DNA of 64,000 bases from an uncultured Dongia sp. (GTDB taxonomy: Bacteria; Pseudomonadota; Alphaproteobacteria; Dongiales; Dongiaceae): assembly GCF_936916975.1 (NCBI RefSeq), contig NZ_CAKZGO010000022.1, forward strand, positions 1 to 64,000, in the 5' to 3' direction. The translations under genes were made by a program, and so were the position numbers. This document shows positions 128-17,880 of this stretch, piece after piece. Under the pieces are notes generated by a model. That model was not told where the DNA came from and did not search any database. It saw only the letters and a list, made by a program, of their open reading frames with translations. Every line of letters begins with the position of its first letter. Position 1 is the first letter of the stretch.

Positions 128-409
<282 letters not shown>

Positions 410-437
410 GGTTCTCTCCTTGCTTTGATGCGTGTTG

Positions 438-695
438 TTACTTGGATTTCGATTTCGTGGGCTCGTCCAGCGAGCCGATGATGAGGGCGTCGATGGGAAT
501 CTTGCCGCCGCCCAGCCAGGAGGCGGCGGTTGACCCGGTGACGATGAGCACATCCTCGCCCTCGCCGCAGCCCAGCACGTCGAAGGCGATCATGCGCCCA
601 CCGCCATGGCTCTCCACTTCCAGGAAGGCGCCAGATGGAATGTGTTCGATCTTCTTGGTGGCCCAATAACGGCCCACGACCCGACCTCGAATCAT
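438..695 (-). CDS. BMC-P pentameric vertex protein (EutN/CcmL family)
   Basis: The 85-residue protein has the EutN/CcmL beta-barrel pattern: [15 protein letters not shown] at the start, [31 protein letters not shown] in two short segments in the middle, and [12 protein letters not shown] at the end. These proteins cap the icosahedral vertices of microcompartments. The start codon overlaps the stop of the upstream PduM-like gene by four bases (692-695), which implies translational coupling. The C-terminal tail TKSKSK is basic and non-conserved. With BMC-H and BMC-T in the same operon, the minimal set for a closed shell is present. Confidence 0.93.
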
Positions 696-1117: not shown

Positions 1118-1713
1118 CCCTGCAACGCGGCAAGTGCCGCTTCAGCGCCCATGCGGACATTGGATTCTTCGCCGGAGAGATAGACGCGGCCCGTGGCACC
1201 GAACATGCGGTAGTCGATCACCTTGATGTCCGCGGTCTTCTCCGCCTCATTGGTGGCGAGAATGGCGTAGGAAGCGGGCTGCATTTCAAGGACGAACAAG
1301 GATTCTCCAGGCAGGATCATCGATCCCGATTTGTTGCGGTTGATGAGAAAGGCATGGCCGTTATCGATCCGCGTCACGATCTTGGAGGCGAGGATCTGCG
1401 GCTTCATCGCCTGGTCCTGGCGGGCGCCCAGCTGCTCCAGCACGGCATCCGCCGCGGATTTGACCGAGGCGACCGAACGCGAATGGAATTCGAGATAGCC
1501 GAACTGACGTTCCACCACCAGCATGCCGCCGGAGACGCTGGCGTGTTTCAGCGCAACATCGGTCAGCGCCTCGATATCGAGGCCGGGTGCCACTTCGATG
1601 ATCTGGGCCGCCATCTGGGTACGCGGCAGCCGCCCGCGCATGCCACTCGCCATATAGCAGAGCGTCTGCGGCTGCAGCTGGTCGATGAAGATGAAGGAGC
1701 GCAGATCGGCCAT
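1114..1713 (-). CDS. BMC-T tandem-domain shell protein
   Basis: At 199 residues the protein is about twice the BMC-H length and reads as two BMC-like halves. Residues about 1-95 carry RTQMAAQIIEVAPGLDIEAL and GGMLVVERQFGYLEFHS; residues about 105-199 carry ESLFVLEMQPASYAILATNEAEK and end with GRVYLSGEESNVRMGAEAAL, the classic closing strand and helix of a BMC domain. Tandem BMC proteins form pseudohexameric trimers, often with larger pores. The gene lies 17 bp after the aldehyde dehydrogenase and overlaps the next gene by four bases. The ribosome site is weak (AGAGCTG), and whether the domains are circularly permuted was not determined. Confidence 0.88.
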   Translation of the reverse strand: MADLRSFIFIDQLQPQTLCYMASGMRGRLPRTQMAAQIIEVAPGLDIEALTDVALKHASVSGGMLVVERQFGYLEFHSRSVASVKSAADAVLEQLGARQDQAMKPQILASKIVTRIDNGHAFLINRNKSGSMILPGESLFVLEMQPASYAILATNEAEKTADIKVIDYRMFGATGRVYLSGEESNVRMGAEAALAALQG

Positions 1714-1730: not shown

Positions 1731-3326
1731 TCATGACCGCAACGCGCCGCGGAGTTCTTCGAGGACCATGCGGCGGATTTCCTCCCGCAGGATGGCAACT
1801 TCATCGACCGTGCCATGTGATGCGTGGGGCAGGGGCAGCGGGTCCTGTGCTGCCTCGGCACCTTCCTGCAGACGACCCAGCGAGATCGGCGCTTCCAGGC
1901 CGAGCGCCAGTGCCGGACCACCGGCATTGGCATCCAGCCCGCTGAAATCCCCGAAAGCTTCCTTGGGGTCGTCGTTATAGGCGATCCGCGTCCAGTTGAT
2001 GAGATGCTGCGGCCCGACATTCTCGCCGATGGCGGACGATCCGAAGAAACCGGTGCCGATGGTGAAGGCGGGGGCGAGATGCGTGCCGTAGCCGGCAGCG
2101 CCCAGGCTGCAGGGCGCATTCACGACGACACGCAGCGCCTTCACAGCAGCGCCGTATTTCAGGATCGTAGGGGCATGCTTGCTGTGGATGGCGGCGGAAT
2201 GGCCGGCGCCGGACAGGCGGATGAGGGCGCGCGCCTGGGTGATGCCGGCCTGTGCGTGCGGCACGCGCAGGAAGCCCAGGACCGGGCAGAGCTTTTCCTT
2301 GGAGAGCGGCTCGTCGATGCCGATACGGTCGATCTCCGCGAGGATGATCTGGGTCTGTGCCGGCAGGCGCAGGCCGATCAGCGCGCCGATCTCGACCGCC
2401 GATTTGCCCAGCACCGCGATGTTGAAGCTGCCTTTGCCGAAGAGAAGGTCGCGCAAAGCCACGACTTCTTCCGGCTTCGCTACATAGGCACCGGCGGACT
2501 TCAGCGCCTGCAGCAGCCGATCGGCGATGCTCTCGACCGCCAGCACCACGCTCTCATTGGTGCACAGGATCGAGTTGTCGAACGCCTTCGACGTCACGAT
2601 GCGCTTGGCGGCCTCAATCACATCGGCGCTGTCGTCGACCAGCACCGGGGCATTGCCCGGACCCACGCCAATCGCCGGATTCCCGGAACTGTAGGCCGAG
2701 CGCACCATCGGTGTGCCGCCTGTCGCCAGAATGACGCTGACCCGCGGTGATTTCATCACATAGTCAATAAGCGGCAGATTGGGCTGCTCGATCACCTGGA
2801 TGATGCCGATTGGTGCGCCGGCTTCTTCGGCTGCCGCCGCCATCAATTTGGCGGCCCGGGTCGAGCACTCCTTGGCCATCGGATGGGGCGAGAGGATGAT
2901 CGCGTTGCGGGTGAAGAGTGCCATCAGCACCTTGTAATAGACGCTGCAGACTGGATTGGTGGAGGGTGTCAGGGCGAAGACGATGCCGGCCGGTCTTGGC
3001 AGCTCAACCATCTTCAACTCGGATTTGATCCGAGCCGAGCAATAGTCCTCTTTGGCATAAAGCTCAAAGAGGCCGCGCGAGGTCAGCTCGTTCTTGATCT
3101 TCTTGTGGGCGGTGACGCCAAAACCGGTTTCCTTGACGGCTGCTTCGGCAAGCGCACCAGCATGAGCGTACGCAACGTCAGCGGTCGCCCGCGCAATGGC
3201 TTCCACCCGCTTGCGGTCGAAGCGCGCAAAGGTCGCCGCAGCCCATTCCGCATTCTGCAGCATCATGTCTGCATTGCCGGTGGCGCGCTTGTCGCCGGCC
3301 AGGATCTCTTCGACGATCGCGGTCAT
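1731..3326 (-). CDS. CoA-acylating aldehyde dehydrogenase with C-terminal encapsulation helix
   Basis: The 531-residue protein is of the PduP/EutE/AdhE-N type, which converts an aldehyde, NAD+ and CoA to acyl-CoA. The catalytic Cys is in FDNSILCTNES (about residue 255), and VGPGNAPVLVDDSADV is the expected upstream segment. After the catalytic domain come a low-complexity Gly/Ala/Pro linker (about 455-505) and a predicted amphipathic helix, VDEVAILREEIRRMVLEEL, near residues 507-525. A linker plus terminal helix is the standard encapsulation signal of BMC cargo. Neighbours are the phospho-lyase upstream and BMC-T downstream. The likely substrate is propionaldehyde, inferred from context. The start has GAGGA upstream. 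Confidence 0.9.
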   Translation of the reverse strand: MTAIVEEILAGDKRATGNADMMLQNAEWAAATFARFDRKRVEAIARATADVAYAHAGALAEAAVKETGFGVTAHKKIKNELTSRGLFELYAKEDYCSARIKSELKMVELPRPAGIVFALTPSTNPVCSVYYKVLMALFTRNAIILSPHPMAKECSTRAAKLMAAAAEEAGAPIGIIQVIEQPNLPLIDYVMKSPRVSVILATGGTPMVRSAYSSGNPAIGVGPGNAPVLVDDSADVIEAAKRIVTSKAFDNSILCTNESVVLAVESIADRLLQALKSAGAYVAKPEEVVALRDLLFGKGSFNIAVLGKSAVEIGALIGLRLPAQTQIILAEIDRIGIDEPLSKEKLCPVLGFLRVPHAQAGITQARALIRLSGAGHSAAIHSKHAPTILKYGAAVKALRVVVNAPCSLGAAGYGTHLAPAFTIGTGFFGSSAIGENVGPQHLINWTRIAYNDDPKEAFGDFSGLDANAGGPALALGLEAPISLGRLQEGAEAAQDPLPLPHASHGTVDEVAILREEIRRMVLEELRGALRS

Positions 3327-3338
3327 GTCAGTATGTCC

Positions 3339-4628
3339 TCACGCGGCACGGTGCGATTTCTTAGCCGTGCCGAGGCAATCGGCCCGGGCCAGGCCGATGC
3401 TGCGTTCGACGCGCTCCAGAACCTCGGCGCAGAGATCGGCGGTCATCAGCACGCCGGGCTTGAACTGCAGCACGCGCGGGTCGAGGGTCGAGAAAATTGC
3501 CCAGACGCCGTTCTCATATAGATGCTTCATGACCGGCTTGGCGCCTTCGGGGTAATCGAATTCCAGCCCCATCACCAGGCCGCATTGCCGGATGCCGACG
3601 AAGAAATCCGGGTAGAGCCCCATGATTTCATGAAGACCGTTGCGAAAGGTCTCCGAGATATAGTTAACCATCGGCTTCATGGTCGGGCGTTCCAGGATCT
3701 CCAGCGTCTTCATGGCGACAAGGCAGCCGAGTTCGGCGCCACCCATGGTCGACATATGCGCAAAGCCGTCCTGGGTCAGCCAGCCGGCATAGGGTTCGCG
3801 CACGACCACACAGGCGATCGGATACATGCCACCGGAGATGCCCTTGCCGGTGACGACCATGTCCGGGTGGATGCCATAGCGCTGATAGCCCCACATCTCG
3901 CCGCAGCGCATGAGGCCGGTCTGCACCTCATCGGCGATATAGAGGGCGCCGTATTTCTCGCACAGCTTCTTCACATCCTTCAGATAGCCGGGCAGTGGCA
4001 TCGGAAAGCCATAGGTGGCCGGGATCGTCTCCATGATCAGGGCCGCGACGTCCTTGCCTTTGAGTGCGTCTTCCATGGCATTCAAGTCGTTGAACGGCAC
4101 ATGGATGAAGTCGTCGGGCTGTTCGGAGAGAAAGATCTTTTTGAATCGATCGGCACCCGCCGCGACCGCGAGGCCGGTATGCCCGTGATAGGCATTGATG
4201 ATCGAGACGATCTTGCGCCGCTGCGTCGCGTGACGCGCGGTCTTCAAGGCGATGTCGATCGCCTCGGCCCCGCCCGAAGCGTACATGGTGTAATGCATAT
4301 CGCCGCCGCAGATCCGGGCCAGGCGCTCGGCCAAGGCCGTGCGCCCCTGGTTCGGGAAATGATGATTTCCCATGTCGAAGCGCTGCATGCCGCGATTGAG
4401 CACTTCAATAAGTTCGGGATGACGATGGCCGATATTATAGGTGCCACCATTGAGATGGAGGTCGATCAGCCGGCGGCCATCCATGTCCCACAGAAGATAG
4501 CCTTCGCGCTTGTCGATCACCAGATCGACGCCCATGTCCTGCCAGGCCTGGGTCTTGCCCGGATTCCAGAACGTCTTCGATTTTGCGATGAATTCGCGTT
4601 TCTCGGGACTCTGATTTAGCTCCGTCAT
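3339..4628 (-). CDS. Class III aminotransferase-fold PLP enzyme, probable amino-alcohol-phosphate phospho-lyase
   Basis: The 429-residue protein has the class III fold: NIGHRHPELIEV near the N-terminus, YASGGAEAIDIALKTAR for phosphate binding, IADEVQTGLMR with the PLP-pyridine Asp, and VVTGKGISGGMYP with the Schiff-base Lys. Members partnered with an APH-type kinase usually act as phospho-lyases rather than transaminases. In RMM loci this enzyme is thought to convert aminopropanol phosphate to propionaldehyde, ammonia and phosphate. Here the kinase is 26 bp upstream and the acylating aldehyde dehydrogenase 12 bp downstream, which fits exactly. A plain transaminase role is the main alternative. 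AGGAG precedes the ATG at 4628. Confidence 0.85.
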   Translation of the reverse strand: MTELNQSPEKREFIAKSKTFWNPGKTQAWQDMGVDLVIDKREGYLLWDMDGRRLIDLHLNGGTYNIGHRHPELIEVLNRGMQRFDMGNHHFPNQGRTALAERLARICGGDMHYTMYASGGAEAIDIALKTARHATQRRKIVSIINAYHGHTGLAVAAGADRFKKIFLSEQPDDFIHVPFNDLNAMEDALKGKDVAALIMETIPATYGFPMPLPGYLKDVKKLCEKYGALYIADEVQTGLMRCGEMWGYQRYGIHPDMVVTGKGISGGMYPIACVVVREPYAGWLTQDGFAHMSTMGGAELGCLVAMKTLEILERPTMKPMVNYISETFRNGLHEIMGLYPDFFVGIRQCGLVMGLEFDYPEGAKPVMKHLYENGVWAIFSTLDPRVLQFKPGVLMTADLCAEVLERVERSIGLARADCLGTAKKSHRAA

Positions 4629-4654: not shown

Positions 4655-5653
4655 TCAGCTCGTTTGGCTCAAATAGCGTTCGGCAAGTTCACAGGTGCCG
4701 GTGCTGTAGCCCGGCCCCTCCGTGCGCGCGAGATCGGTTTCCGCGTGGCTGCCCATCCAGGCGAACAGCGTCATGCGCCGCAGCAGGATGAAGGTCCACA
4801 TCTCGTCATCATCTTCCTGCGGCAATGCGCGGATTCGGCGATAGCCTTCCTTCCAGGCTTCCATGAGGTCGGGCACATCGGCACGGTCTTCGAAGAAGCT
4901 GACCGCGGTGGCGGCGTCGTACAGAAACCAGCCCAATCCGCAATCGTCGAAATCGATGACACGCACATCACCGTTATGGACCAGCAGATTGGCGAGGCGA
5001 AAATCGGCATGGATCAGGCCATAGCGGCTCTTTCCTTGGCCGAAACGCAGCAGGCGTTTCTCCATGAGATCGACAGCGCGCTGCAGCAGTTTGGCGCGAT
5101 CCGGCGTGCAATCCGGCCCGTCTTGCCAGGCCCCCCAATTTGCGGTCTTGCCGAGGGAATGTTCAAAATCCCAGGACAGACGTTCGAAATAGGGCGGTCG
5201 TTGCCAGCCTTCGCTGTGGTTGTGGCAGCGCGCTGTGACCTCGCCCAATTGACGAAAGGGGGCAAGGAGGTTGTGCTGCGGCGGCTCAATCCCGTCGATG
5301 AATTCGAACAGCACGCAATTGCGCGGGGTTGAAAGGGCCGGGTGCGAGATTGTCTGGATATCGGTGCCATCGAGGGCCGGGATGGCTTGCGGCGTCTTCA
5401 CACCGGCCTCCGCCTGCAGCGCGCGCATCCAGGCCAATTCGCTGCGGATGCCATCGACGCTATGATAGCCGTCCCGGTGCACGCGCAGAATAACCGGCCG
5501 AGCGGCACTTTTCGGCATCACGCGGTAGGTCCAGTTTTCCGAATGATTGATGAGCGTCATCTCAGCGCCGGCAAGGCCCCAGCGCGCCAATGACGCCGCC
5601 GCCAGCTCATCGATGCTGCGCAACAATCGTTCGGTTGTGAGCACGCCGCTCAT
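4655..5653 (-). CDS. APH-family kinase, probable amino-alcohol kinase
   Basis: A 332-residue aminoglycoside-phosphotransferase-fold kinase. The Brenner motif HADFRLAN (His215, Asp217, Asn222) and the metal-binding VIDFDDCGLGW (about 232-242) are intact, so catalysis is expected. In microcompartment loci of the RMM type the equivalent protein phosphorylates 1-amino-2-propanol before the PLP lyase acts. It is the first gene of the shell operon. I take ATG 5653 (MSGVLTTERL), preceded by AAGGGAT; an in-frame ATG at 5683 would add ten residues and cannot be excluded. Upstream, toward the divergent AraC gene, is the 21-bp-spaced repeat at 5799-5826. Homoserine or choline kinase are alternative readings of the fold. 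Confidence 0.83.
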   Translation of the reverse strand: MSGVLTTERLLRSIDELAAASLARWGLAGAEMTLINHSENWTYRVMPKSAARPVILRVHRDGYHSVDGIRSELAWMRALQAEAGVKTPQAIPALDGTDIQTISHPALSTPRNCVLFEFIDGIEPPQHNLLAPFRQLGEVTARCHNHSEGWQRPPYFERLSWDFEHSLGKTANWGAWQDGPDCTPDRAKLLQRAVDLMEKRLLRFGQGKSRYGLIHADFRLANLLVHNGDVRVIDFDDCGLGWFLYDAATAVSFFEDRADVPDLMEAWKEGYRRIRALPQEDDDEMWTFILLRRMTLFAWMGSHAETDLARTEGPGYSTGTCELAERYLSQTS

Positions 5654-5798
5654 CTCTATCCCTTGCTCCCAGATGTCCATCAACTCTCAACCCTTGGATT
5701 CGCTGGCTTTTGCCAAGCACGCATCAAGAGTTCGCCGCTTGTTCGCGGCCGGCCGTTTCCATCCATGGGCGACGTTAGGCTGGCGCGTCGCGCATGCG

Positions 5799-5915: not shown

Positions 5916-6983
5916 ATGGCTGCCGCCCTGCTGGATCCCAAGACCGAGACGCGTGAGACCGGGGCGCCGATCGTGCTCGCGGCCGCCGCTACGGGTCTGG
6001 TCGATTTCATCGAGCGCCAGCATGGTGACGTGGATTCTATCTTCGGCAATTCCGGCATCGCCCCGGATATGGCGGGCGCACCCACCTTAAAGCTGAAGCT
6101 TGCCTCTTATTGCCGGTTGTTCGAACAGGCGGCGAAGCAGATCGAGGGTGAAAAGTTCAGCCCCGGCAATTTCGGCCTGCATTTTGGCCAACAGTTTCAG
6201 CCGCGCGATCTCGGCATGTGGGGCTATGCCGCCATCTCATCGCCGACCTTGGGCGCTTCACTCGACAATCTGGTCCGGCTGTTTCATTACCATCAGGAAT
6301 CCTCCGGCATGCAATTGGCGCGCGGTGCCGATGGGCTGATGCGCCTTCAATACCAGATCTATTCCTCGGAGATCGTCGAGCGGCGCCAGGATGCAGAACT
6401 GTCGCTGGGCATGTTCGCCAATGTGATCCGCGATTGCTGCGGTCCGCGATGGGCGCCGGTCGAGGTGCATTTTGAACATCCGCGACCAGAGTTCTGGAAG
6501 GAACACGAGGCGGCCTTCGATGCGCCGGTCTATTTCAGCCAACCCACCAACGCCCTGCTGTTCCGTCCGGAACTCCTGGAACGCCCGATGCCGGGGCGCG
6601 ATCTGCAATTGCTCACCATGATGCAGACCTGTCTTGAATCGTTAGGCTCGCATCGCCAGGGCAGCGATGGGATGGTCGACCGCGTCAAGACAGCGATCCG
6701 GGTCAATCTGCCCGGCGGTTATCCCAGCCTCGATCACATCGCGCAGATGCTGCGTGTCCCCGTCGCGGTCATCCAAAGGGAACTTGCCGAACAGGGCCTG
6801 ACCTATAAGGACGCCGTCGAGACGACGCGGCAGAGCCTCGCCCAGATGTATCTCGATCAGCGGCAATTGCCCTTAACCGAGATTGCCCTGCTGCTGGGCT
6901 ATTCGGAGTTGTCGGCGTTCACCCGCGCCTTCACGCGCTGGACCGGCGTCAGCCCCCGCGCTTATCGCAAGCAGGGGCATTGA
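5916..6983 (+). CDS. AraC-family transcriptional regulator 1 (arabinose-bd/OruR type)
   Basis: The 355-residue protein has an N-terminal sensor domain (about 20-220; GLVDFIERQHGDVDSIFGNSG, RDLGMWGYAAISSPTLG) of the type seen in OruR/ArgR-like AraC proteins. A C-terminal AraC double helix-turn-helix follows, with LTEIALLLGYSELSAFTRAF and WTGVSPRAYR. GGAG lies eight bases before ATG 5916. The gene is divergent from the kinase/BMC operon and very similar to the regulator at 16822. The two share both protein and promoter features, so they arose by duplication. An amino alcohol, diol or aldehyde effector is an inference from position. Confidence 0.92.
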   Translation: MAAALLDPKTETRETGAPIVLAAAATGLVDFIERQHGDVDSIFGNSGIAPDMAGAPTLKLKLASYCRLFEQAAKQIEGEKFSPGNFGLHFGQQFQPRDLGMWGYAAISSPTLGASLDNLVRLFHYHQESSGMQLARGADGLMRLQYQIYSSEIVERRQDAELSLGMFANVIRDCCGPRWAPVEVHFEHPRPEFWKEHEAAFDAPVYFSQPTNALLFRPELLERPMPGRDLQLLTMMQTCLESLGSHRQGSDGMVDRVKTAIRVNLPGGYPSLDHIAQMLRVPVAVIQRELAEQGLTYKDAVETTRQSLAQMYLDQRQLPLTEIALLLGYSELSAFTRAFTRWTGVSPRAYRKQGH

Positions 6984-6987
6984 CGAC

Positions 6988-7770
6988 CTACATCTGCGCC
7001 ATGGCGTCCTGCGACTCCGGCAGGATCTGGCCGCCATCGACGATAATGGTCTGGCCGGTGATGTAGCCTGCCTCGCGCGATGCGAGGAACAGTGCTGCAT
7101 GACCGATATCATCGACTGTGCCGAGCTTACCCATCGGCACTGCTGCTGCCATGCCCTTCATATAGGCCTCGCCCAATTCAATGAGCCCCTCGGTCATGAC
7201 ATTGCCCGGCAGCACGGCATTGACGGTGATACCGTATTTGGCAAGCTCCATGCAGGCGGTGCGCATGAAACCCAACTGGCCGGCCTTAGTCGCACCGTAA
7301 TGGGTCCAGCCAGGGAAGCCGGTCACCGGCCCGGTGATCGAGGAGGTGATGACGATGCGGCCCTCGCCCGATTTTTTCAGATAAGGCACGCAGGCTTTCA
7401 CCGACAGGAAGGTGCCCTTGAGGTTGGTGGCCATGACGTCGTCCCAGGTCTCCGGCGACATTTCCTCGATCTTCACCTGCGGAAACATCCCGGCATTGGC
7501 ACAGAGCACGTCGACACCGCCATAGCGATCGACCGCCGCCTTGGCCATCTTCTCCATCTCGGGCAATTTGGTGACATCGGCCGAGAAGCCTGAGGCGGTG
7601 TGGCCCATATCGGTGAGTTCCTTGGCCGCGGCTTCCGCAGCCTTCAAATCGCGTCCCACCACCAGCACCTGGGCACCGTGCTTGGCGAAGACGCGGGCGA
7701 TGCCTTTGCCGACGCCTTTGCTGGCGCCGGTGACGATGACCGATTTTCCCTTGATCGATGCGGCCAGCAT
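6988..7770 (-). CDS. Short-chain dehydrogenase, likely 1-amino-2-propanol/aminoacetone oxidoreductase
   Basis: This 260-residue classical SDR has the Rossmann motif TGASKGVGKG (about 14-23), the NAG motif at 92-94, and the Ser144-Tyr158-Lys162 triad (ITSSITG and YGATKAG). It ends in an extra tail, PESQDAMAQM. An SDR of this sort in the Mycobacterium RMM cluster oxidises S-1-amino-2-propanol, so the same role is proposed here; generic 3-oxoacyl reductase annotation would be the default alternative. The ATG at 7770 follows AGGAG. It lies 23 bp after the last permease gene, so it is probably the distal gene of the transporter operon. Confidence 0.82.
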   Translation of the reverse strand: MLAASIKGKSVIVTGASKGVGKGIARVFAKHGAQVLVVGRDLKAAEAAAKELTDMGHTASGFSADVTKLPEMEKMAKAAVDRYGGVDVLCANAGMFPQVKIEEMSPETWDDVMATNLKGTFLSVKACVPYLKKSGEGRIVITSSITGPVTGFPGWTHYGATKAGQLGFMRTACMELAKYGITVNAVLPGNVMTEGLIELGEAYMKGMAAAVPMGKLGTVDDIGHAALFLASREAGYITGQTIIVDGGQILPESQDAMAQM

Positions 7771-7793
7771 GGCGCGTCTCCTCTGATGTCGTG

Positions 7794-8615
7794 TCAGGTT
7801 TCCGAATGTTCGCTGGCGGCGCGGCGGCGCCGCACCAGCAGGATGATGGCATAGCCGCAGAGCAGCAGCGTTGCGGCGCCGACGGTGGACACGGTGCCGA
7901 GCACCGGGACGCCTGGCGTGTAGCCGGCGACCATCTTGGCATAGAGAAATTCCGGGATCGTCGTATCGGCGCCCGTCGTATAGAGCGAGAGCGGGAAGTT
8001 GCCCCAGGACAGCAGGAAGGCAAACAGCGCGCCGGAGAAGATGCCCGGGAAAAGGACCGGCAGAGTGACTTCCTTGAACACCTGCCATTTGGTGGCGCCG
8101 AGGTCGAAGGCCGCTTCCTCCAGCGCCGGGTCGAAGGAATAGACCTGGATCGAGATTACCAGCGTGCAGACCGGTACGATCCACACCAGGTGGGCAAAGA
8201 CCGCTGTCTGCCAGGACATGGTGAGGCCAAGCGCGTTGAACCAGAGCAGCAGCGAGAGGCCGAGAACCGATTGCGGGAAGAAAATCGGCAGCAGCACGAT
8301 CTTCTGATAGATGCTGCGTCCCTTCCAGTCATAGCGCGCAAAGGCAAGTGCCCCGAAGAGGGCAATGGTCACGGCGATGACCGTAACGCAGAAGGCGATC
8401 AGCAACGAGGTCCGGAACAGCTGGTGAATCTCCAGCGAGGCGAAGGTCTTTTCCCACCAGGCGAAGCCCCATTTATTGATGGGGAAGATGAAGTAGCGGC
8501 TGGATGTCATCGAAGCCAGCAACAGGCAAAGTCCCGGCAGATACATGAAGACGACCATGGCTGCCGTCCAGGACCAGATCAGCGATGTCCGCCAGCGTGG
8601 GGTGAGACCGTCCAT
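7794..8615 (-). CDS. PotC-type ABC transporter permease
   Basis: A 273-residue inner-membrane permease with about six hydrophobic segments. The coupling-helix motif EEAAFDLGATKWQVFKEVTLP (about 150-170) contacts the ATPase. The order substrate-binding protein, ATPase, PotB-type, PotC-type and the sequence style match spermidine/putrescine importers (the 2.A polyamine/opine class). Amino alcohols such as 1-amino-2-propanol would be plausible substrates given the neighbouring pathway; this is inference. It starts 3 bp after the other permease. Confidence 0.87.
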   Translation of the reverse strand: MDGLTPRWRTSLIWSWTAAMVVFMYLPGLCLLLASMTSSRYFIFPINKWGFAWWEKTFASLEIHQLFRTSLLIAFCVTVIAVTIALFGALAFARYDWKGRSIYQKIVLLPIFFPQSVLGLSLLLWFNALGLTMSWQTAVFAHLVWIVPVCTLVISIQVYSFDPALEEAAFDLGATKWQVFKEVTLPVLFPGIFSGALFAFLLSWGNFPLSLYTTGADTTIPEFLYAKMVAGYTPGVPVLGTVSTVGAATLLLCGYAIILLVRRRRAASEHSET

Positions 8616-8618
8616 GGC

Positions 8619-9473
8619 CTATCTCCGCCCCAGGATGGCGTCGAGATCGAAGCGCCGCAGCACGAGCAGCACCAGCGTTCCCACCACCAGCATCAGCAGC
8701 ACCGAGAGGGCGGCGCCCAGCGGCCAGTTCTGCGCATAGGTGAAGGCGATCTCGATATCATGGCTGATCGGGATGATCTGCTGGCCGCCCAGCACCTTGG
8801 CCTCGGCGATGGCGCCGACCGCCAGCACGAAGGAGAGCAGGAAGCCGATCATGATACCGGGCATGGACAGCGGCAATTCCACTTCCTTGAACACCTGCCA
8901 GCGCGTCGCGCCGAGGTCGAAGGCGGCATCGCGGGTCTGGTCCGGCACCATCGAGACGCCGAGCGTCATCGGGAACAGCATGAAGGGCAGATACACATAG
9001 ACCATGCCCCAGACGATGATTCCGTTGGTGAACAGCCAACTCTCCGGCTCAATCCCGAACCAGGATTTGAGCGTGCCGAGCAGCACGCCGTTCTTGATGA
9101 AGAACAAGACCCAGCCATAGAGGCGGACGTTCTCGGAGACGAAAAGCGGGATGGTAAACAACAACGTCACCAGGGTCGAGTATTTGCCGAAGACCCGCGC
9201 CAGGCCATAAGCAATGGGGTAGCAGATGACGGCCAACACCAGCACCGTGATGGCGGCAAGACCCAATGACCACAGGAAGGAGAGATAGCTGGTTGAATTG
9301 AAGATCTCGATATAGTTGCCGAGGCCCCAGTTCTGCCACAGCGAGAAACTCCGCGCCGGCACAAAACTGAACCCGATCACAGCGAGCAGCGGTGCCGCGA
9401 ATCCCACCAGCAGGAACAGCACCAGCGGGATGGCGTGGCGCGTGCCAGGTGCGAGGAGCTTGGAGATCGTCAT
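8619..9473 (-). CDS. PotB-type ABC transporter permease
   Basis: The 284-residue membrane protein has six or so transmembrane stretches, starting with HAIPLVLFLLVGFAAPLLAV. It carries the EAA-type loop TRDAAFDLGATRWQVFKEVE that docks on the ATPase. It pairs with the PotC-type permease downstream to form the heterodimeric channel. The gene begins 13 bp after the ATPase stop. A run of small amino acids near the end (LSVLLMLVVGTLVLLVL) is the last membrane helix. Confidence 0.87.
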   Translation of the reverse strand: MTISKLLAPGTRHAIPLVLFLLVGFAAPLLAVIGFSFVPARSFSLWQNWGLGNYIEIFNSTSYLSFLWSLGLAAITVLVLAVICYPIAYGLARVFGKYSTLVTLLFTIPLFVSENVRLYGWVLFFIKNGVLLGTLKSWFGIEPESWLFTNGIIVWGMVYVYLPFMLFPMTLGVSMVPDQTRDAAFDLGATRWQVFKEVELPLSMPGIMIGFLLSFVLAVGAIAEAKVLGGQQIIPISHDIEIAFTYAQNWPLGAALSVLLMLVVGTLVLLVLRRFDLDAILGRR

Positions 9474-9486
9474 GTGCGGACCCCGC

Positions 9487-10554
9487 TCAATCCGTCACCA
9501 GGATGCTGTCCTTGGCATCCCAGCCGATGAGAACATTGTCGTCGAGCTTGCCGGTAAAGGCTTGCTGCCGCAGTTTCTCGACGATGAAGACATGATCATT
9601 CACGCGCACCTGGTATTGGATGCGTGATCCCAGCACGTATTCGTTATAAAGCCGGCCTTCGAGGCAGTTCTGCGCCTCGTTGTGCGCGCTGAGGAAGCGC
9701 AGCGATTCCGGGCGCACCACCAGATGTCCGGCGGCAAAGCCGGCCGGCACAGATGGGCTCACGAAATCGATATTGAATTCGGCGGCATGGACCGTCGCAG
9801 CGCCGCCGGCCCTGACAGCCATCACGTTCACATCGCCGACGAATTCCGAGACGAACTTTGTTTCCGGCGCGCCATAGATCTGCTGCGGTGAGCCCACCTG
9901 GACCAATTGCCCCGCGCGCATGACGCCGATGCGGTCGCTCATCACCATCGCCTCCTCCAGGCTGTGGGTGATATAGATGAAGGTCTTGCCGGTCTCGCGG
10001 TGGATGTCCTTCAACTCCTTTTCGAGCGTCTTCCGCAGCTTGTAATCGATCGCCGAGAGCGGTTCGTCGAAGAACAAAATGTCGGGGTCATAGGCCAGTG
10101 CCCGGGCCAGTGCTACACGCTGTCGCTCGCCGCCGGAGCATTTCGTGACGCTCTTGCCGTAATAGTCCTGCGGCAGCCGCAATTGGTCCATCAGCTGCAA
10201 CGCGCGTGCCTTGCGCACATCGGGTGCGATATTCTTGATCTTGAGCGAAAATTCGATGTTCTGGCCGACCGTCCGGTGCGGGAACAGGGCCAGGGACTGG
10301 AACACCATGCAGGTCGGGCGCTTGTTGGCCGGCAGATCGTTGATGCGGGTGCCGCGCAGCAGGATATCGCCACTGGTGGCGCTTTCCATTCCGGTCAGCA
10401 TGCGCAGCATCGTGGTCTTGCCGCTGCCTGACGGCCCGACGATCGTGAAGAACTCGCCTTCCGTGATATCGAGGTTGATGTCTTTGACGGCCGTAAAATT
10501 ACCGAACGTCTTGGTGAGATTGCGCAATTGCAATATGGGCGATCGGCCGTTCAT
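9487..10554 (-). CDS. PotA-type ABC transporter ATP-binding protein
   Basis: The ATPase of the Pot-like importer. It has Walker A GPSGSGKTT, the signature CSGGERQRVALARAL (Cys replaces the usual Leu at the first position), Walker B DILFFDEPLSAID, and the switch His in YITHSLEEA. A C-terminal TOBE-like domain (VRPESLRFL) follows. I choose ATG 10554 (MNGRSPILQL, 355 residues), preceded by GAGG; an in-frame start at 10584 lacks a ribosome site. It follows potD after a stem-loop at 10600-10631, a common way to make more binding protein than ATPase. Confidence 0.88.
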   Translation of the reverse strand: MNGRSPILQLRNLTKTFGNFTAVKDINLDITEGEFFTIVGPSGSGKTTMLRMLTGMESATSGDILLRGTRINDLPANKRPTCMVFQSLALFPHRTVGQNIEFSLKIKNIAPDVRKARALQLMDQLRLPQDYYGKSVTKCSGGERQRVALARALAYDPDILFFDEPLSAIDYKLRKTLEKELKDIHRETGKTFIYITHSLEEAMVMSDRIGVMRAGQLVQVGSPQQIYGAPETKFVSEFVGDVNVMAVRAGGAATVHAAEFNIDFVSPSVPAGFAAGHLVVRPESLRFLSAHNEAQNCLEGRLYNEYVLGSRIQYQVRVNDHVFIVEKLRQQAFTGKLDDNVLIGWDAKDSILVTD

Positions 10555-10592
10555 GGTCCTCGGAAATCCGGGTGATGGTGACATGAGAAGGG

Positions 10593-10655: not shown

Positions 10656-11819
10656 TCAGCCGCCCGAAGCTGCGCGCTTGGCGGCGGTCATGACGTCGAG
10701 CAGCTTGTCGTAATCCGGCACGATGTCGTATTCGACCGAGCGCGCCATCTCTTCCTCAAGGCTGTCATATTGGATGGCATCCAGCTCTTCCTTGGTGAAA
10801 AGGCTGAAGCATTCCGGATTGCCCATCTGGGCCACCGGATTAAACGTGCCCTCGGCGAAGGCCACCGTGTGCGCGACCTTGGGATCCTGGACATATTCCA
10901 GGAACTGCACGGCCAGCGGCGAGATGTCCGGATTGTTGACCACCGAGGTGATTTCGATCCAGGAAATGCCGCCCTTGCCGCCTTCCATCGGGCCCTTCTT
11001 CGGCGTGATGCCGCGGATGGCGGCCGTCCCGTCGGCACGGGCCGGCGAGGCGGAATAGGTGCCTCCGGTCATGTGGAAATTGATTTCGCCGGAGACGAGC
11101 GCCTGGTTCATGGTGGCGATATCGCCCACGACCTTGGCGCCCTTGAACACCTTGTTGGCGGTCTCGGTGAACTTGGCGACTTCTTCGTCGGTGTGCACCT
11201 TGAACGGATCAAAGCCAGCGATGCAGCAGATGTTGAAGACGTTCCAGTCGTCGGATTCGAGGATGCCGTATTTCTTGTCATTGGCGGAATCGTTCCACAG
11301 ATCCCAGCCCTGGTCCTCGGCGGCGTCGCGGCTCACCTTGTCGGTGTTGACGACAAAGCTGTAGGGGCCGTAACGCTGCGCCATGCCCAGTAATTGGGCG
11401 CCGGAATCATCCATCGCCCATTTGTAGGGCGCCTTGAAGGCCGGGGCCATCTTGTCGAAATAGGGCTCCATCTTGGCGCGGTCGAGCGGCGTGATCAGCT
11501 TCTCCGGGAACATCTTTTTGCGAGCCCAGGGATTGTTGACGTTGATCAAATCCCAGACATTGGTCTCGCCGGCGCGTAGGCGGTTGATCATGGTCGGATC
11601 GTTGGTGAGCGATTCCGCCTTGATCGTGGCGCCGGAAGATTCACGGAACGGGTCCAGCACCTGGGCTGAGTTATAGCCCTCCCAGCACAGGATATTGAGT
11701 TCCTTCGACCGGTCGGCAAAGGCCGGGCGCAGGCCGGCAACGCCGCCGGTGGCAAAGGCCGCCGCCATCAAGGCGGAATTCTGCATGAAATTACGACGTG
11801 ACTGCTTGAAACTGCTCAT
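10656..11819 (-). CDS. PotD-type periplasmic substrate-binding protein with Tat-like signal
   Basis: A 387-residue polyamine-type binding protein. The N-terminus has SRRNFMQ followed by a hydrophobic Ala-rich stretch and AFA before DRSKELNILCWEGYNS, so export is probably by the Tat route. ILCWEGYNSAQVLDPF and FVVNTDKVS are typical of the PotD/PotF class. ATG 11819 is chosen because GAGAGAG precedes it. It heads the operon potD-A-B-C-SDR. The 21-bp-spaced direct repeat at 12000-12027 sits about 180 bp upstream. Ligand is unknown; a short amino alcohol fits the context. Confidence 0.88.
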   Translation of the reverse strand: MSSFKQSRRNFMQNSALMAAAFATGGVAGLRPAFADRSKELNILCWEGYNSAQVLDPFRESSGATIKAESLTNDPTMINRLRAGETNVWDLINVNNPWARKKMFPEKLITPLDRAKMEPYFDKMAPAFKAPYKWAMDDSGAQLLGMAQRYGPYSFVVNTDKVSRDAAEDQGWDLWNDSANDKKYGILESDDWNVFNICCIAGFDPFKVHTDEEVAKFTETANKVFKGAKVVGDIATMNQALVSGEINFHMTGGTYSASPARADGTAAIRGITPKKGPMEGGKGGISWIEITSVVNNPDISPLAVQFLEYVQDPKVAHTVAFAEGTFNPVAQMGNPECFSLFTKEELDAIQYDSLEEEMARSVEYDIVPDYDKLLDVMTAAKRAASGG

Positions 11820-11999
11820 CTGTCTCTCTCCGTGCGCCCGGTCATTTTCTGCCGGTGCTGCTTCCCTGTTGACCAAGCTGATGCATCTGGCCGCGAATTC
11901 CGGACGGATGCGGTGTGTGCTGTTCTTGCGCTTGCTTGACGCAAGTCGTCTTGATGTCGGTCACACTATGGACGATAGGGATGCCCTACCACCCGGTCT

Positions 12000-12033: not shown

Positions 12034-12762
12034 TCAGGTCAACGCCAACCAATTTCGCGTGAGGGTCCGGCAAACCTGGACATAGTCACCGAAATGGGTC
12101 TCGAATTGCTGGTCCAGATCCGTCAGTAATCTTGGCTCATCCCGGCAGAAATCCTTTCCGAACATCCGGATCCAATCCCGGACAATGTCGATTGTCACCT
12201 CAATATGGAACTGCACGCCATAGGTCTTGGCACCGACCCGGAATGCCTGAACGGGGCAAGCGCCGCCCGTCACCAGGGCGATGGCGCCCGGCGTCGCGCG
12301 GGTCGCCTCGTAATGGTTCTCGAAGGTCGTCAGCGGTTCGGCGATATCCTTGAACAAGGGGTCAATTTTCCCCGCTTGCGTCAGGTCCAACTGCCGGAAA
12401 CCGGATTCAAGCCGGCTCATGCGGTAAATCTCGCCGCCGAAGGCATGGGCGATGATCTGGGCGCCGAGGCAGACACCCAGCACCGGCCGGTCCAACGCCG
12501 TGAAGGCGCGGATGAGGGCCATGGTCTCGGTCAGGAACGGATAGACATGTTCGTCCCGGGCGCTCATCGGCCCGCCCATGACGATCAGCCCGGCATAGCC
12601 GCCGGGCCCGTCCGGCAGGCCCGGATAATCCATCGGTGACTGGCTGGCAAAACGCCCGACCGGAAAGACCGCATCATACCGGACACCGTTTTCTATCAGT
12701 GCCTGCCCGAGCAGACCCGGCGGCGCCACCAGTTCCGGGACGATGATCAGGATGCGCTTCAT
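12034..12762 (-). CDS. Class I glutamine amidotransferase-like protein
   Basis: The 242-residue protein has the GATase class I core: GLIVMGGPMSARDE, the nucleophile elbow VLGVCLGAQIIAHAFGG with its Cys, and YGVQFHIEVT with the His-x-Glu pair, so the triad is intact. It resembles stand-alone GMP-synthase-like GATases, including gamma-glutamyl hydrolases of amine catabolism. The ATG at 12762 overlaps the stop of the cysteine-hydrolase gene by four bases, so the two are co-translated. Hydrolysis of a gamma-glutamyl or amide intermediate is possible but unproven. Confidence 0.85.
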   Translation of the reverse strand: MKRILIIVPELVAPPGLLGQALIENGVRYDAVFPVGRFASQSPMDYPGLPDGPGGYAGLIVMGGPMSARDEHVYPFLTETMALIRAFTALDRPVLGVCLGAQIIAHAFGGEIYRMSRLESGFRQLDLTQAGKIDPLFKDIAEPLTTFENHYEATRATPGAIALVTGGACPVQAFRVGAKTYGVQFHIEVTIDIVRDWIRMFGKDFCRDEPRLLTDLDQQFETHFGDYVQVCRTLTRNWLALT

Positions 12763-13466
12763 ACCAGTTTCATCATCTCTTTGAGCTCGGCTGCAGTCAT
12801 CACGTGGCAATAGATCATGTTGATGATGGCCAGTTCCTGTTCATGGAGGGCATGCGCGCCGGCCGCACAGCAATCCTCGGCGACCACCACCTGGAAACTC
12901 TCATCGGCAAGGCTCCGCACCGTCGATGAGACGCACTGGTCCGTGAAGATGCCGACACAGATCACGTTCTTGATGCCGAGATTGTGGAGGATCAGGCGCA
13001 GATTGGTGCCGGTCAAAGCACTGTCGGTGGTCTTGGTGACGGTGATCTCGTCACCCTGTGGTGCCAGTTGTGGCACGATCTGCGAGGCATGCTCGTCCTT
13101 GGGCAGGAGCAGATTGTTCCAGCCCGGCATTTTCTGGCTCAGCGACCGGTCGCGGCCGTCCTGCGTCTGGCAGGCAATGCGCGCAAACAGGCATTCGATC
13201 CCGTGCTTGCGGGCAAGCCGCAGCAGGTCGGCTGAACGTGGGATGACAATCTCGTTCATGCGCTGGTGAAACGGCGTCCAGGCATCGTAATGGGCCTGGC
13301 CCGCCGCATCCAGTGTTGCCCGGTCCGGCCGCGCCAGATAGGTGTTCTGCACATCGATCACCAGCAAAGCCGTTTCCGCTGGCTTGAAATCGAGATCATC
13401 CGGCTCGGGCGCTCCCTGGTAATAGAAGGAACGGTTACTTGTCTTCCAACTCATTTGCTCTGTCAT
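12759..13466 (-). CDS. Isochorismatase-family cysteine hydrolase
   Basis: A 235-residue protein of the isochorismatase/nicotinamidase superfamily. The catalytic Asp is in ALLVIDVQNTYLA, the Lys in TVTKTTDSALTGT, and the nucleophilic Cys in GIFTDQCVSSTVRSLAD with the cis-peptide context. Members cleave amides such as carbamoyl, biuret or N-carbamoyl compounds. It is translationally coupled to the GATase-like gene downstream, which suggests two-step handling of a nitrogen compound. Start MTEQMSWK is kept though the ribosome site (GAAAG) is weak; ATG 13454 is an alternative. Confidence 0.87.
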   Translation of the reverse strand: MTEQMSWKTSNRSFYYQGAPEPDDLDFKPAETALLVIDVQNTYLARPDRATLDAAGQAHYDAWTPFHQRMNEIVIPRSADLLRLARKHGIECLFARIACQTQDGRDRSLSQKMPGWNNLLLPKDEHASQIVPQLAPQGDEITVTKTTDSALTGTNLRLILHNLGIKNVICVGIFTDQCVSSTVRSLADESFQVVVAEDCCAAGAHALHEQELAIINMIYCHVMTAAELKEMMKLV

Positions 13467-13898: not shown

Positions 13899-14324
13899 TC
13901 AAAACCTGAAAGTGAATAGTCCCCTACGTTCGTAAACTTCCGCCGCTTCTTCGACAAACGCCGCCATCTTTTCAGCGCGATAGGCTTCCCGCAATGTCTT
14001 GGCGGCGGCCAGCAACTCATCCTTGGTCTTGGCCCGCCCCGGCCGCAGCAATTCATAGACCTTCAACACAAAATCTTGGGGCACATCGACGATCTCCGCC
14101 GCGCGCTCGAAATTGCGCGCGAGGGTTGGGCGGCCGGCCAATTCAGATATGCGCGCCTGATCCTGCAGCGCCTGCGGGGTGATGCGCAGATCCTCCAGCG
14201 TCACCTTACCGGCCTCGACGGATTTGAGGGTGAGCTCGGTGAGCGGTGTGCCACGCGCGGTCTTAACCAGATCCGGACGGTTCTCGGCCAAAGGGTAGTC
14301 GGCAATGCCGTTGATGCGGGCCAT
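13899..14324 (-). CDS. pduE: Propanediol/glycerol dehydratase small (gamma) subunit
   Basis: The 141-residue protein matches PduE/DhaB3: DYPLAENRPDLVKTARGTPL, TLEDLRITPQALQDQARI and GRPTLARNFERAAEIV are hallmark segments. It completes the B12-dependent diol dehydratase with the fused large/medium subunit encoded upstream. The stop and start share a base (TGATG; ATG at 14324), so the two are translated in a coupled way. The N-terminal amphipathic targeting helix seen in Salmonella PduE is missing; the protein starts directly with the conserved core. Confidence 0.93.
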   Translation of the reverse strand: MARINGIADYPLAENRPDLVKTARGTPLTELTLKSVEAGKVTLEDLRITPQALQDQARISELAGRPTLARNFERAAEIVDVPQDFVLKVYELLRPGRAKTKDELLAAAKTLREAYRAEKMAAFVEEAAEVYERRGLFTFRF

Positions 14325-16630
14325 CAATGCGCCTCCAGGAACGCGATCTCGATATCCTCCGGCTTCGCCCCATCGGCGGTGAGCGAGGTCTCGATGGCGT
14401 AGATCAGCGCCACCTGGGCGTGGTAGCGGGCACCCATCGCCTTGCCCTCGGTCGGCACGACCACCGGCTCGGGCATCTCGCCCTTGGCATAGGTCGCGGC
14501 ATTTTCGCCAAGGCTGCGATAATGGGTGAGCGAGGTGATCGGCGCGTTGGAGAAAAGCTCCAGATTGTGATGCGGCAACCGGTCTGCTTGATGGATCACC
14601 GCTGTCCCCTTGGCCTGAATGCCGATACCGATGCCCGACCCGGCCAGGCGTGCGGCACTCAGCCCCAGGAAGGAGGTGTCGGCGGTGTGGCCCATGCGCA
14701 CGATCCGGGCGACACCACCCTTGGCTTCGACCCCCTCGCTCAGCGCCCGCAGGACGGCCGACAAGGCATGGCCGGCAAGCGTGCGAAAGAGCTTCACCCC
14801 GAAGGCAGGGCTCACCCCGATAACGATTTCGTTCTTGGGACCCGTCGTCCCGGCGTCACCCAATGTCTTGTAGCGGATGAGTTTCGCCTCCGGCCCCGCG
14901 AAGGTCGCCTCGGTGCGCAGCACTTCCTCACGCGTCAGGACGTCGCGAATGGCAGAGAGTTCCTGGCGTCGGGCCTCGCTCACCCGGTAACCGGTGCCGG
15001 GGCCGCTGTAATCGTTGGGGTTGTTGACGGCGCTCACCACATGGCCATTGCGCACCACCGCCGCCGTCTGCAGGTAATCGCCCGACACGCGCAGCCGCAC
15101 GACGTTGAGCAGGTTCTGTGCCTCATCGCGGAAGCCGCGCGCCGCCAGTGCCTTGATCACATCCAGCACATTGATGCCACGTTCCTTGATCTTCTCGCTG
15201 ATGAAGGCGACATCGCGCGGCAGATAGCTGTCGGTATCGTTGGAGCCCGACGCCACCGCGACACTGCGCTTCATGGCCTCGGTCGGCGTGCCCAGCTCCA
15301 GTTCGGCAAAGACCGCAGACAGTGCGTCGACGGCACGCTTGCGGACGTCGAGGGCGGTCGCTTCACCGACCGAGGTCAGTCCGCCATCCGCCTCGTAATC
15401 CCGCTGCAGCACCAGGAAATCCTCCATCTCCTCGCCATTGAAGGAGGAGGGGTTGAAGGAATTGTCGTATTTCAGGATCGATCCCATGCCAGAACAGATG
15501 AAATCCGAGCCGGCGATGAGATAGGGCAGGATCTTGGCGCCGACGCGGATCTCGGATTCCGAATGCCGCGCATCGTTGCCAGTCGCGCATTCGAGATCGA
15601 GCCACACGGCGATCAGATTCTCCGCCAGTAGTTCGCGCACACCGCCCGGCATGGTCGAGGCCAGGGGCGCCCCGTCGATGCCGCCATTCTGCGTCCCCTG
15701 GACACCCATCGCGCGCTGAAGACACAGGCACCGCGCTTCCAAATAAAGGAGCGACTTTGATTCATGGAACCCCATAAGGAGTTCCGACGCGGCACCCGAG
15801 GTGCAGCGCATCTTGATGCCGCGCGAGGCATAGGCGGCCGCGAGGAATGCCTTCGACCAAGGCGTGTCGTCGCCATCGGTAAATGCCCGCTCGGTGCCAT
15901 AGACCGAAACCGTCTCGGCATAGGAGGTAAAGCCCGCCATGCCGATCTGCAATTCCTCCGCTTCCTCGCTCGAACATTGGAAGAGGGTGCCCCAGCGCCC
16001 AACGGCAGCACCTACGGCGCAAGCGAGCGCATTCGACCAGGCGTTGCGCGCCACGCGCATGGTGGTCTCGACCTCGTCGAAGCCGAAGGCCACGGCCGTC
16101 GCCGCGTCCGCCGCCAATTGCAGCGGATCGTCCTTGGCATTGGTGACATGGCCCTGATTGCCGGGAATCTTCCGCGTGCGCATCTTGGAGAAGGCGAAAG
16201 CTAGTTCGATCGCGGACAATTGTGCCACCACCTCGGCGAGCTTCGCCGGCGTCAGCCCATGGGCCAGGCGCGCCAGTTCCTCGCGCGGCACGGAGATGTC
16301 CACCAGCCTGCGGGCGATTTCCGCCGATGGGATCGCCATCGCTGTCGGCGCCAAATCCAAATCCAGATGATGATGGGCGATGAAGTGATCGATCATGTCG
16401 AAATCGGCCAGGGGGATACCGTCCATGCTGGCAATCCGGCCGGCTTCCATCACGAGGCTGGGTTTCGGGTCCTTGGCGCCGTGGAAGGCTGCAAAACCGT
16501 TCGCCGGGTCTTCGACGGCGAAGCGATCCAGGCGCAGCGGCCGTTCGTCCCAGTCGGCGAAGCGCCGCCACCTGTTCGCGCCGGTAGTTTTATCCCCTGG
16601 GGCTTTGTCCGCTGGCGTTTGATCGCTCAT
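14324..16630 (-). CDS. pduCD: Fused large-medium subunit of B12-dependent diol dehydratase
   Basis: A 768-residue fusion. Residues about 20-565 are a PduC-type large subunit: DPKPSLVMEAG, DFDMIDHFIAHH, YGTERAFTDGDDTPWSK. Residues about 575-768 are PduD-like: GSGIGIGIQAKGTAVIHQ, NLELFSNAPI. The known active-site set of Klebsiella diol dehydratase (Q141, H143, E170, E221, Q296, D335, S362) maps here to Q159, H161, E188, E239, Q314, D353 and S380, a constant +18 offset. The enzyme makes propionaldehyde from 1,2-propanediol. The fusion buries the medium-subunit N-terminus, the usual BMC targeting peptide. No reactivase or cobalamin adenosyltransferase gene was seen in the window. I choose ATG 16630; GGGAG precedes it. 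Confidence 0.93.
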   Translation of the reverse strand: MSDQTPADKAPGDKTTGANRWRRFADWDERPLRLDRFAVEDPANGFAAFHGAKDPKPSLVMEAGRIASMDGIPLADFDMIDHFIAHHHLDLDLAPTAMAIPSAEIARRLVDISVPREELARLAHGLTPAKLAEVVAQLSAIELAFAFSKMRTRKIPGNQGHVTNAKDDPLQLAADAATAVAFGFDEVETTMRVARNAWSNALACAVGAAVGRWGTLFQCSSEEAEELQIGMAGFTSYAETVSVYGTERAFTDGDDTPWSKAFLAAAYASRGIKMRCTSGAASELLMGFHESKSLLYLEARCLCLQRAMGVQGTQNGGIDGAPLASTMPGGVRELLAENLIAVWLDLECATGNDARHSESEIRVGAKILPYLIAGSDFICSGMGSILKYDNSFNPSSFNGEEMEDFLVLQRDYEADGGLTSVGEATALDVRKRAVDALSAVFAELELGTPTEAMKRSVAVASGSNDTDSYLPRDVAFISEKIKERGINVLDVIKALAARGFRDEAQNLLNVVRLRVSGDYLQTAAVVRNGHVVSAVNNPNDYSGPGTGYRVSEARRQELSAIRDVLTREEVLRTEATFAGPEAKLIRYKTLGDAGTTGPKNEIVIGVSPAFGVKLFRTLAGHALSAVLRALSEGVEAKGGVARIVRMGHTADTSFLGLSAARLAGSGIGIGIQAKGTAVIHQADRLPHHNLELFSNAPITSLTHYRSLGENAATYAKGEMPEPVVVPTEGKAMGARYHAQVALIYAIETSLTADGAKPEDIEIAFLEAH

Positions 16631-16734: not shown

Positions 16735-16821
16735 GAATATCTATGCTGCCTTGCAGCATCGCCGTCACCATGCCATCATTCCTGACCCAATCCGGCCATG
16801 AAGTTTGCAGGGATGTCAGCC

Positions 16822-17880
16822 ATGATCCATCCAGGACGACAGGCATTTCCGGAAACCCCTAGCGCCCAAGGCGGGCCGGTGGTTCTGGCCGCGGCTGCGT
16901 CGGGATTGGTCGATTTCATCGAGACGCAAGGCGGCGACGTCGATTCCATCTTCGGTAATTGTGGCATCGCGCCGGAAATGACCACGGCGCCCACCCTGCA
17001 GCTGCGCCTCGCCGCCTATTGCGGCCTGTTCGAGGAAGCGGCGAAACAGACCGGCAGAGGCAATTTCGGCCTGTGGTTCGGCCAGCAATTCTCGCCGCGC
17101 GATCTCGGCATGTGGGGCTATGCCTCACTGTCCTCGCCCACGCTGGGGAGTGCGCTTGAAAACCTGGTTGGCCTCTTCCGCTACCAGCAAAGCTCGTCGA
17201 CGATGCATCTACGGCGCGATCCTGACGGTCGCATGCACCTCGAATACCAGATCCTGTCACCCGCCATCATTGCACGGCGCCAGGATGCCGAATTGTCCCT
17301 GGGCCAGTTCACCAATATCATCCGCGAGGCTTGCGGGCGTCACTGGTCGCCGCTGGAAATTCACTTCGAGCATCCCCGCCCGGCCGATTGGCGGCAGCAT
17401 GAAATGGCTTTCGGGGCGCCGGTGTTCTTCGGTTGCGCCACCAACGCCATCATCTTCGATGCCGCTTTGCTGGCACGGCCGATGCCTGGGCGCGACCTCA
17501 AGCTCCTCACCATGATGCAAACCTGCCTGGAATCGCTGGGCTCTCGCGACCAAGCCGAATCGCTGGTCGACCGGGTGCGCAGTGCGGTCCGCCTGCGCCT
17601 CACGGAGGGCGCGCCGACGCTGGAGCAGATCGCCCATGTGCTGCGCCTGTCGCCCACGGCCATCCAGCGCGCCTTGGCCGATGCCGGGCTGGGGTTCCGG
17701 GAAGCTGTGGATATGACGCGCTATGATCTTGCGCGCTATTATCTCCAGCAGAGCCAATTGCCGTTGAGCGAGATAGCACTGCTGCTGGGATATTCTGAAC
17801 TTTCAGCTTTCACGCGCGCCTTCACCCGCTGGGCGGGCCTCAGTCCGCGCGCCTATCGCAGCGGCATCCTGCAGCACTGA
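16822..17880 (+). CDS. AraC-family transcriptional regulator 2, paralogue of the one at 5916
   Basis: 352 residues, same architecture as the first AraC protein: sensor domain (GLVDFIETQGGDVDSIFGN, RDLGMWGYASLSSPTLG) and C-terminal helix-turn-helix (LSEIALLLGYSELSAFTRAF). PMPGRDLKLLTMMQTCLESL is nearly identical in both. ATG 16822 is preferred over 16798 because its spacing from AGGG and alignment with the first regulator's leader match. It is divergent from the diol dehydratase operon and likely controls it. Which paralogue binds which site cannot be read from the sequence. Confidence 0.92.
   Translation: MIHPGRQAFPETPSAQGGPVVLAAAASGLVDFIETQGGDVDSIFGNCGIAPEMTTAPTLQLRLAAYCGLFEEAAKQTGRGNFGLWFGQQFSPRDLGMWGYASLSSPTLGSALENLVGLFRYQQSSSTMHLRRDPDGRMHLEYQILSPAIIARRQDAELSLGQFTNIIREACGRHWSPLEIHFEHPRPADWRQHEMAFGAPVFFGCATNAIIFDAALLARPMPGRDLKLLTMMQTCLESLGSRDQAESLVDRVRSAVRLRLTEGAPTLEQIAHVLRLSPTAIQRALADAGLGFREAVDMTRYDLARYYLQQSQLPLSEIALLLGYSELSAFTRAFTRWAGLSPRAYRSGILQH

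Follow-up and report, generated by a model that had tools for sequence, protein, structure and literature searches.

A naturally fused alpha-beta B12-dependent dehydratase with an altered, acidic substrate pocket in an RMM2/AAUM-like microcompartment locus of an uncultured Dongia sp.

The closest described enzymes are the diol and glycerol dehydratases PduCDE and DhaB of Klebsiella (1dio, 1iwp). According to PMC7674605, residue Ser301 of the Klebsiella enzyme faces the C3 hydroxyl of glycerol, mutants at Ser301 and Gln336 show changed kinetics and slower inactivation by glycerol, and the engineered variant Q336A is still active on 1,2-propanediol. Reactivation by subunit swapping requires the beta subunit of the dehydratase to leave (PMC7674605). 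Natural fusions of the alpha and beta subunits were described for Mesorhizobium, Mycobacterium and Hyphomicrobium in PMC4777399, which calls the active site of the fused enzymes slightly different (citing Liu 2010) and notes the reactivation factor as absent in these genera. The natural fusion is also cited in PMC7674605 (from Liu 2010), with Mesorhizobium loti among the hosts, and both reports treat the enzyme as a glycerol enzyme. Furthermore, alpha-beta fusions were engineered (Wang 2009, Gibson 2013 and Maddock 2017, as cited in PMC7674605), and structures of such fusions have been solved (9vi2 and kin).

A dehydratase is also part of the RMM2 locus type described by Axen 2014 (PMC4207490), together with a shell, an SDR, a kinase, a class III PLP enzyme and an acylating aldehyde dehydrogenase. 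In that study, the dehydratase was set aside as not belonging to the function of the RMM2 shell, partly since its gene lies on the opposite strand, and a bifunctional RMM2 shell was allowed for. RMM microcompartments also go by the name AAUM. Induction by 1-amino-2-propanol was reported for a Rhodococcus cluster.

Within the analysed window, comprising 64,000 nucleotides of contig NZ_CAKZGO010000022.1 of an uncultured Dongia sp., the minus strand carries a reading frame open from 16651 to 14324 (775 amino acids). Based on Pfam and NCBIfam matches, fold match and relatives, it encodes the fused large and medium (alpha-beta) subunits of a B12-dependent dehydratase. Its start is more likely located at 16630 (768 amino acids), because relatives start at approximately the same position. 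Residues 27-574 were assigned to Dehydratase_LU (E 7e-209) and residues 614-727 to Dehydratase_MU (E 3e-25), and NCBIfam named the protein as large subunit of the propanediol/glycerol family, above cut-off. The linker between the alpha and beta domains, at about residues 574-600 (14852..14932, minus strand) as deduced from the domain bounds, is open in all intact relatives. The small (gamma) subunit is encoded at 13899..14327 on the minus strand (Dehydratase_SU, E 5e-47), and the LU, MU and SU domains of the diol/glycerol dehydratase family all exceed their Pfam cut-offs. The likely ATG of the small subunit is located at 14324, where the motif TGATG (14326-14322) shares one base with the stop codon of the fusion; due to this overlap, both genes appear to be translationally coupled. 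A fused dehydratase with a coupled small subunit had been claimed from the sequence alone, and the two domains in one frame as well as the overlap bear this out.

A structure predicted for the fusion (pTM 0.81) likewise matched the Klebsiella alpha and beta folds, with TM(target) values of 0.88 and 0.92, respectively. The next fold neighbour after the Klebsiella chains was ethanolamine ammonia-lyase. Since pLDDT fell below 50 at residues 361-380 and 398-404, the model was left out of considerations on pocket geometry (D301-E340 distance). Moreover, the genome encodes a member of the cob(I)alamin adenosyltransferase family PF02572; no cobalamin riboswitch or other RNA element was detected above threshold within the window.

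The dehydratase genes are adjoined by a divergent AraC-type regulator gene (16798..17880, plus strand; QhpR model above cut-off) and, on the other side, by an 81-aa reading frame without Pfam or NCBIfam match (13554-13799), which lies between the small subunit gene and that of an isochorismatase-fold amidohydrolase (12759..13466, minus strand) linked in most relatives. These are followed on the minus strand by genes encoding a class I glutamine-amidotransferase-like protein (12034..12810) and a complete polyamine-type ABC transporter, consisting of a PotD-like solute-binding protein (10656..11876), a PotA-like ATPase (9487..10584), a PotB-like permease (8619..9473; recognised from its place in the Pot block and conserved in relatives) and a PotC-like permease (7794..8615). 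The SDR encoded at 6988..7800 (minus strand) has among its closest solved chains 6ci8 and 6ci9, which we take to be the Mycobacterium RMM 1-amino-2-propanol dehydrogenase. A second AraC-type regulator gene (5916..6983, plus strand; QhpR model above cut-off) separates it from the gene for an APH-family kinase (4655..5683, minus strand), whose closest solved chain 6ef6 presumably represents the Mycobacterium RMM/AAUM (S)-1-amino-2-propanol kinase. The remaining minus-strand genes encode a class III PLP enzyme (aminotransferase or ammonio-phospholyase; 3339..4628), an aldehyde dehydrogenase of the acylating EutE/AdhE kind with an amphipathic C-terminal helix (1731..3326), a BMC-T shell protein closest to the RMM shell protein MSM0275 (1114..1713; 5l39, E 1e-86), a 141-aa RMM-locus protein with an amphipathic N-terminal helix (692..1117), a BMC-P vertex protein (438..695) and a BMC-H shell protein (128..487). 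The contig ends at window base 1 inside the microcompartment locus, and the genome has a second BMC-T-like shell gene on contig 33 (G000:C33:24530-25096). Elsewhere in the window, positions 23720-27214 encode a 1164-aa protein whose long, apparently membrane-spanning N-terminal part precedes histidine kinase and receiver domains; its gene adjoins those of a LuxR-type response regulator and a Urt-like transporter.

Judged by gene content, the locus is of the RMM2/AAUM-like (amino-alcohol) rather than the Pdu type, because RMM proteins are among the closest matches of its shell protein, kinase and SDR, and the complete gene set (RMM-type shell, SDR, APH kinase, class III PLP enzyme, aldehyde dehydrogenase, dehydratase) is present. 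The Pdu context implied by the sequence-only reading is weakened accordingly, as the microcompartment is of the RMM/AAUM type and the substrate pocket differs. In comparison to the RMM2 loci of Axen 2014 (PMC4207490), the window locus is alphaproteobacterial, features a Pot-type ABC transporter, an isochorismatase-type hydrolase and AraC regulators, and lacks a reactivase; furthermore, its dehydratase and shell genes share one strand, in contrast to the arrangement on which the strand argument was built.

The locus partners are kept with the fused enzyme across Alphaproteobacteria and in Actinomycetia; in the actinobacterial loci L127 and L130, amino-alcohol genes were not seen beside it. Plasmids of Shinella and Agrobacterium carry the fused enzyme with SDR, APH kinase and class III enzyme and no shell gene within 34 kb, and RMM shell proteins were not found in three genomes encoding the fused enzyme, namely G340, G387 (Azospirillum halopraeferens) and G785 (Ruegeria lacuscaerulensis). 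Since shell-free loci still contain SDR, kinase and class III enzyme, the amino-alcohol module represents the stable partner and the shell is optional. Three further alphaproteobacterial genomes (G176, G185, G279) encode RMM-type shell proteins and are not among the dehydratase-positive genomes, which suggests RMM1-like loci.

Regarding the active site, residues Q141, H143, E170, E221, Q296, D335 and S362 of the Klebsiella diol dehydratase (KoDD) are all present in the fusion. Numbering was transferred by an alignment chain from the window protein via a relative (L075) to 1dio_A, free of gaps over the residues named, and gave an offset of +25 in the 775-aa numbering, corresponding to the +18 given earlier for the 768-aa form. 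This set was kept in 94/94 dehydratases scored and thus marks the whole family and nothing special to the window protein. The earlier statement that all active-site residues are conserved holds for these seven but overlooks the substrate side of the pocket, where the enzyme differs from KoDD by S301D, C302G, Q336A, T337R, H340E and M373S. The codon of Asp326 (KoDD Ser301), a fixed Asp in the clade, is located at 15674..15676, and those of Ala361, Arg362 and Glu365 (KoDD Gln336, Thr337 and His340) lie within 15557..15571, all on the minus strand and placed by alignment.

Among non-redundant sequences, Asp301 together with Glu340 was found in 66/66 fused RMM-type enzymes (43 alphaproteobacterial, 23 actinobacterial), whereas the 29 others, 26 separate PduC and three fused proteins of another branch, all possess Ser301 and His340. 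The classical pocket of Ser301, Gln336, His340 and Met373 is kept by every one of the 26 separate PduC, as opposed to Asp, Ala, Glu and Ser in the window enzyme. On the tree, the two states are divided by a single split, and the acidic pair therefore goes back to a single ancient change, retained in every member compared, and does not amount to repeated independent proof. Engineered Klebsiella fusions (9vi2 and kin) likewise consist of one chain, but are man-made or selected and retain native pocket residues. Neither the D301/E340 rule nor its tie to an amino-alcohol locus was found in the accessible portions of PMC4777399 and PMC7674605. A separate branch of fused dehydratases (L004, L005, L071) keeps Ser301 and His340, but has Ala336; no reactivase was detected near these loci or in the two alphaproteobacterial genomes of this branch that were searched.

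Compared with PduCDE and DhaB, with which it shares the alpha and beta folds, the catalytic and Ca2+ residues and the small subunit, the window enzyme is a single alpha-beta chain that also lacks a reactivase. No match to the DdrA/PduG family PF08841 was obtained in the window genome, and none of the 15 alphaproteobacterial genomes with a fused enzyme that were tested contains a reactivase above the family cut-off; one marginal 19-bit match in G785 remained below it. A wider profile, built to include divergent actinobacterial reactivases, yielded only matches of approximately 20 bits to one short stretch in 9/16 genomes, including the window genome, and nothing in the other seven. These matches probably reflect a general actin-like ATPase, and a reactivase missed through divergence was rejected on this basis. 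In 18/18 actinobacterial fused loci examined, a reactivase alpha gene is located nearby, and the beta subunit was recognised in none. The absence of the factor noted in PMC4777399 thus differs from the actinobacterial loci sampled here, which hold a divergent reactivase alpha gene. As the fusion prevents departure of the beta subunit, loss of the reactivase fits the swapping mechanism.

Based on these results, a function as reactivase-independent amino-diol dehydratase feeding the amino-alcohol pathway is tentatively proposed for the fusion, at slightly less than an even chance. The protein is a natural alpha-beta fusion of the AdoCbl-dependent diol/glycerol dehydratase family, of RMM2/AAUM type, and would act together with a separate small subunit. 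Chelation of Ca2+ and diol and radical chemistry would proceed as in the Klebsiella enzyme, the catalytic set being kept by sequence. The pocket end meeting the C3 substituent would be opened by Q336A and M373S and made acidic by S301D and H340E, which could hold a cationic group. E340 is a second fixed acid located five residues past the catalytic Asp335, and acids at both 301 and 340 lead us to expect an amino group on the substrate at this place. Enzyme class and gene context follow from the domain matches and neighbouring genes described above, and they suggest as most likely substrate an amino-1,2-diol such as 3-amino-1,2-propanediol. The aldehyde product may then enter the amino-alcohol pathway of kinase, class III PLP enzyme, acylating aldehyde dehydrogenase and shell. 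The permanently attached beta subunit would block the subunit swap, and the enzyme probably runs without reactivation. RMM1 loci, which encode the amino-alcohol pathway without a dehydratase, count against the amino-diol function, as do the argument of Axen 2014 (PMC4207490) on the RMM2 shell and the actinobacterial loci L127 and L130 described above.

With more reserve, the D301/E340 fused enzymes as a whole may constitute a separate B12 activity, amino-diol dehydratase, that is naturally reactivase-free in Alphaproteobacteria. If so, the RMM2 dehydratase would be no bystander but a genuine signature enzyme of the metabolosome for amino-alcohols, its role in RMM2 loci, left open in 2014, would be settled, and a textbook B12 enzyme would gain a substrate class. 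Moreover, a natural reactivase-free enzyme would be a useful template for engineering glycerol dehydratase, for which inactivation is the main obstacle.

The main rival is an ordinary diol/glycerol dehydratase converting 1,2-propanediol or glycerol, with the aldehyde passed to the same acylating dehydrogenase in a locus serving both diols and amino-alcohols. Such a function agrees with the seven retained catalytic residues, the NCBIfam assignment, the bifunctional shell allowed by Axen 2014 (PMC4207490) and the use of 1,2-propanediol by engineered Q336A (PMC7674605). It is rather unlikely, as S301D and H340E are fixed in all 66 fused RMM-type enzymes, the neighbouring genes are amine-related with no Pdu-type partner, and a reactivase is missing although glycerol is a known inactivator. 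A lyase that acts like ethanolamine ammonia-lyase and deaminates 1-amino-2-propanol to propionaldehyde in one step, with no need for the kinase and the PLP enzyme, appears improbable: the locus encodes 1-amino-2-propanol-type enzymes, the fold of ethanolamine ammonia-lyase comes next after the Klebsiella chains and the two added acids could hold ammonium, but every Ca2+ ligand for diol chelation is retained and position 301, extrapolating from glycerol, would face C3 and not the amine-bearing C1.

The dehydratase itself would probably be located outside the shell or enter it without a tag of its own. The sequence-only reading had assumed that the fusion hides the targeting N-terminus of the medium subunit. 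In the beta part, however, alignment to KoDD beta starts only at residue 50, and the PduD targeting extension is therefore absent, not hidden. The further claim that the small subunit has no targeting helix proved correct, as its N-terminal ~38 residues are missing and PduE models match from position 39. No encapsulation-peptide-like sequence was detected at any terminus of the dehydratase and some genomes with the fused enzyme contain no detectable RMM shell protein, so the suggested loss of encapsulation is reasonable. Instead, the amphipathic helices at the C-terminus of the aldehyde dehydrogenase and the N-terminus of the 141-aa protein are candidates for encapsulation peptides directed to the RMM shell.

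The fusion was found to be widespread when other genomes were searched. The clade alignment, run against 84,980 species genomes, revealed approximately 40 alphaproteobacterial relatives with 65-95% identity, nearly all full-length in a single frame; the exceptions are truncated or broken copies. In a sample of 395 Actinomycetia, the large-subunit family occurred in 30 genomes, most matches were fused, and the same continuous frame was present in about 20 genomes. That pduC and pduD were joined by an error of sequencing or assembly, for which a frame break near 14850-14930 had been considered, is excluded; nothing was found in its favour, and this frame is shared by the ~40 alphaproteobacterial loci and ~20 actinobacterial genomes and codon changes between the window and near relatives are mostly synonymous in both the alpha and the beta domain. 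That separate PduC and PduD are the norm and a fusion surprising does not stand, since the fused form is commoner among the Actinomycetia sampled and natural fusions are published. The fusions of Mesorhizobium loti, Mycobacterium and Hyphomicrobium are of the same kind, and both the changed active site and the lack of a reactivation factor were noted for them; novelty of the fusion itself was dismissed on the basis of PMC4777399 and PMC7674605. What is of use here is the combination of an altered, acidic pocket with an amino-alcohol locus.

One dehydratase copy in genome G163 (L010/L088) matches in frame only over residues ~17-276 and thus appears to be broken or mis-assembled; RMM-type shell genes are located on a different contig of this genome. 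Furthermore, on the haloarchaeal Halomarina plasmid NZ_CP100455.1, large and medium dehydratase subunits are encoded by separate genes with approximately 48% identity to the window enzyme.
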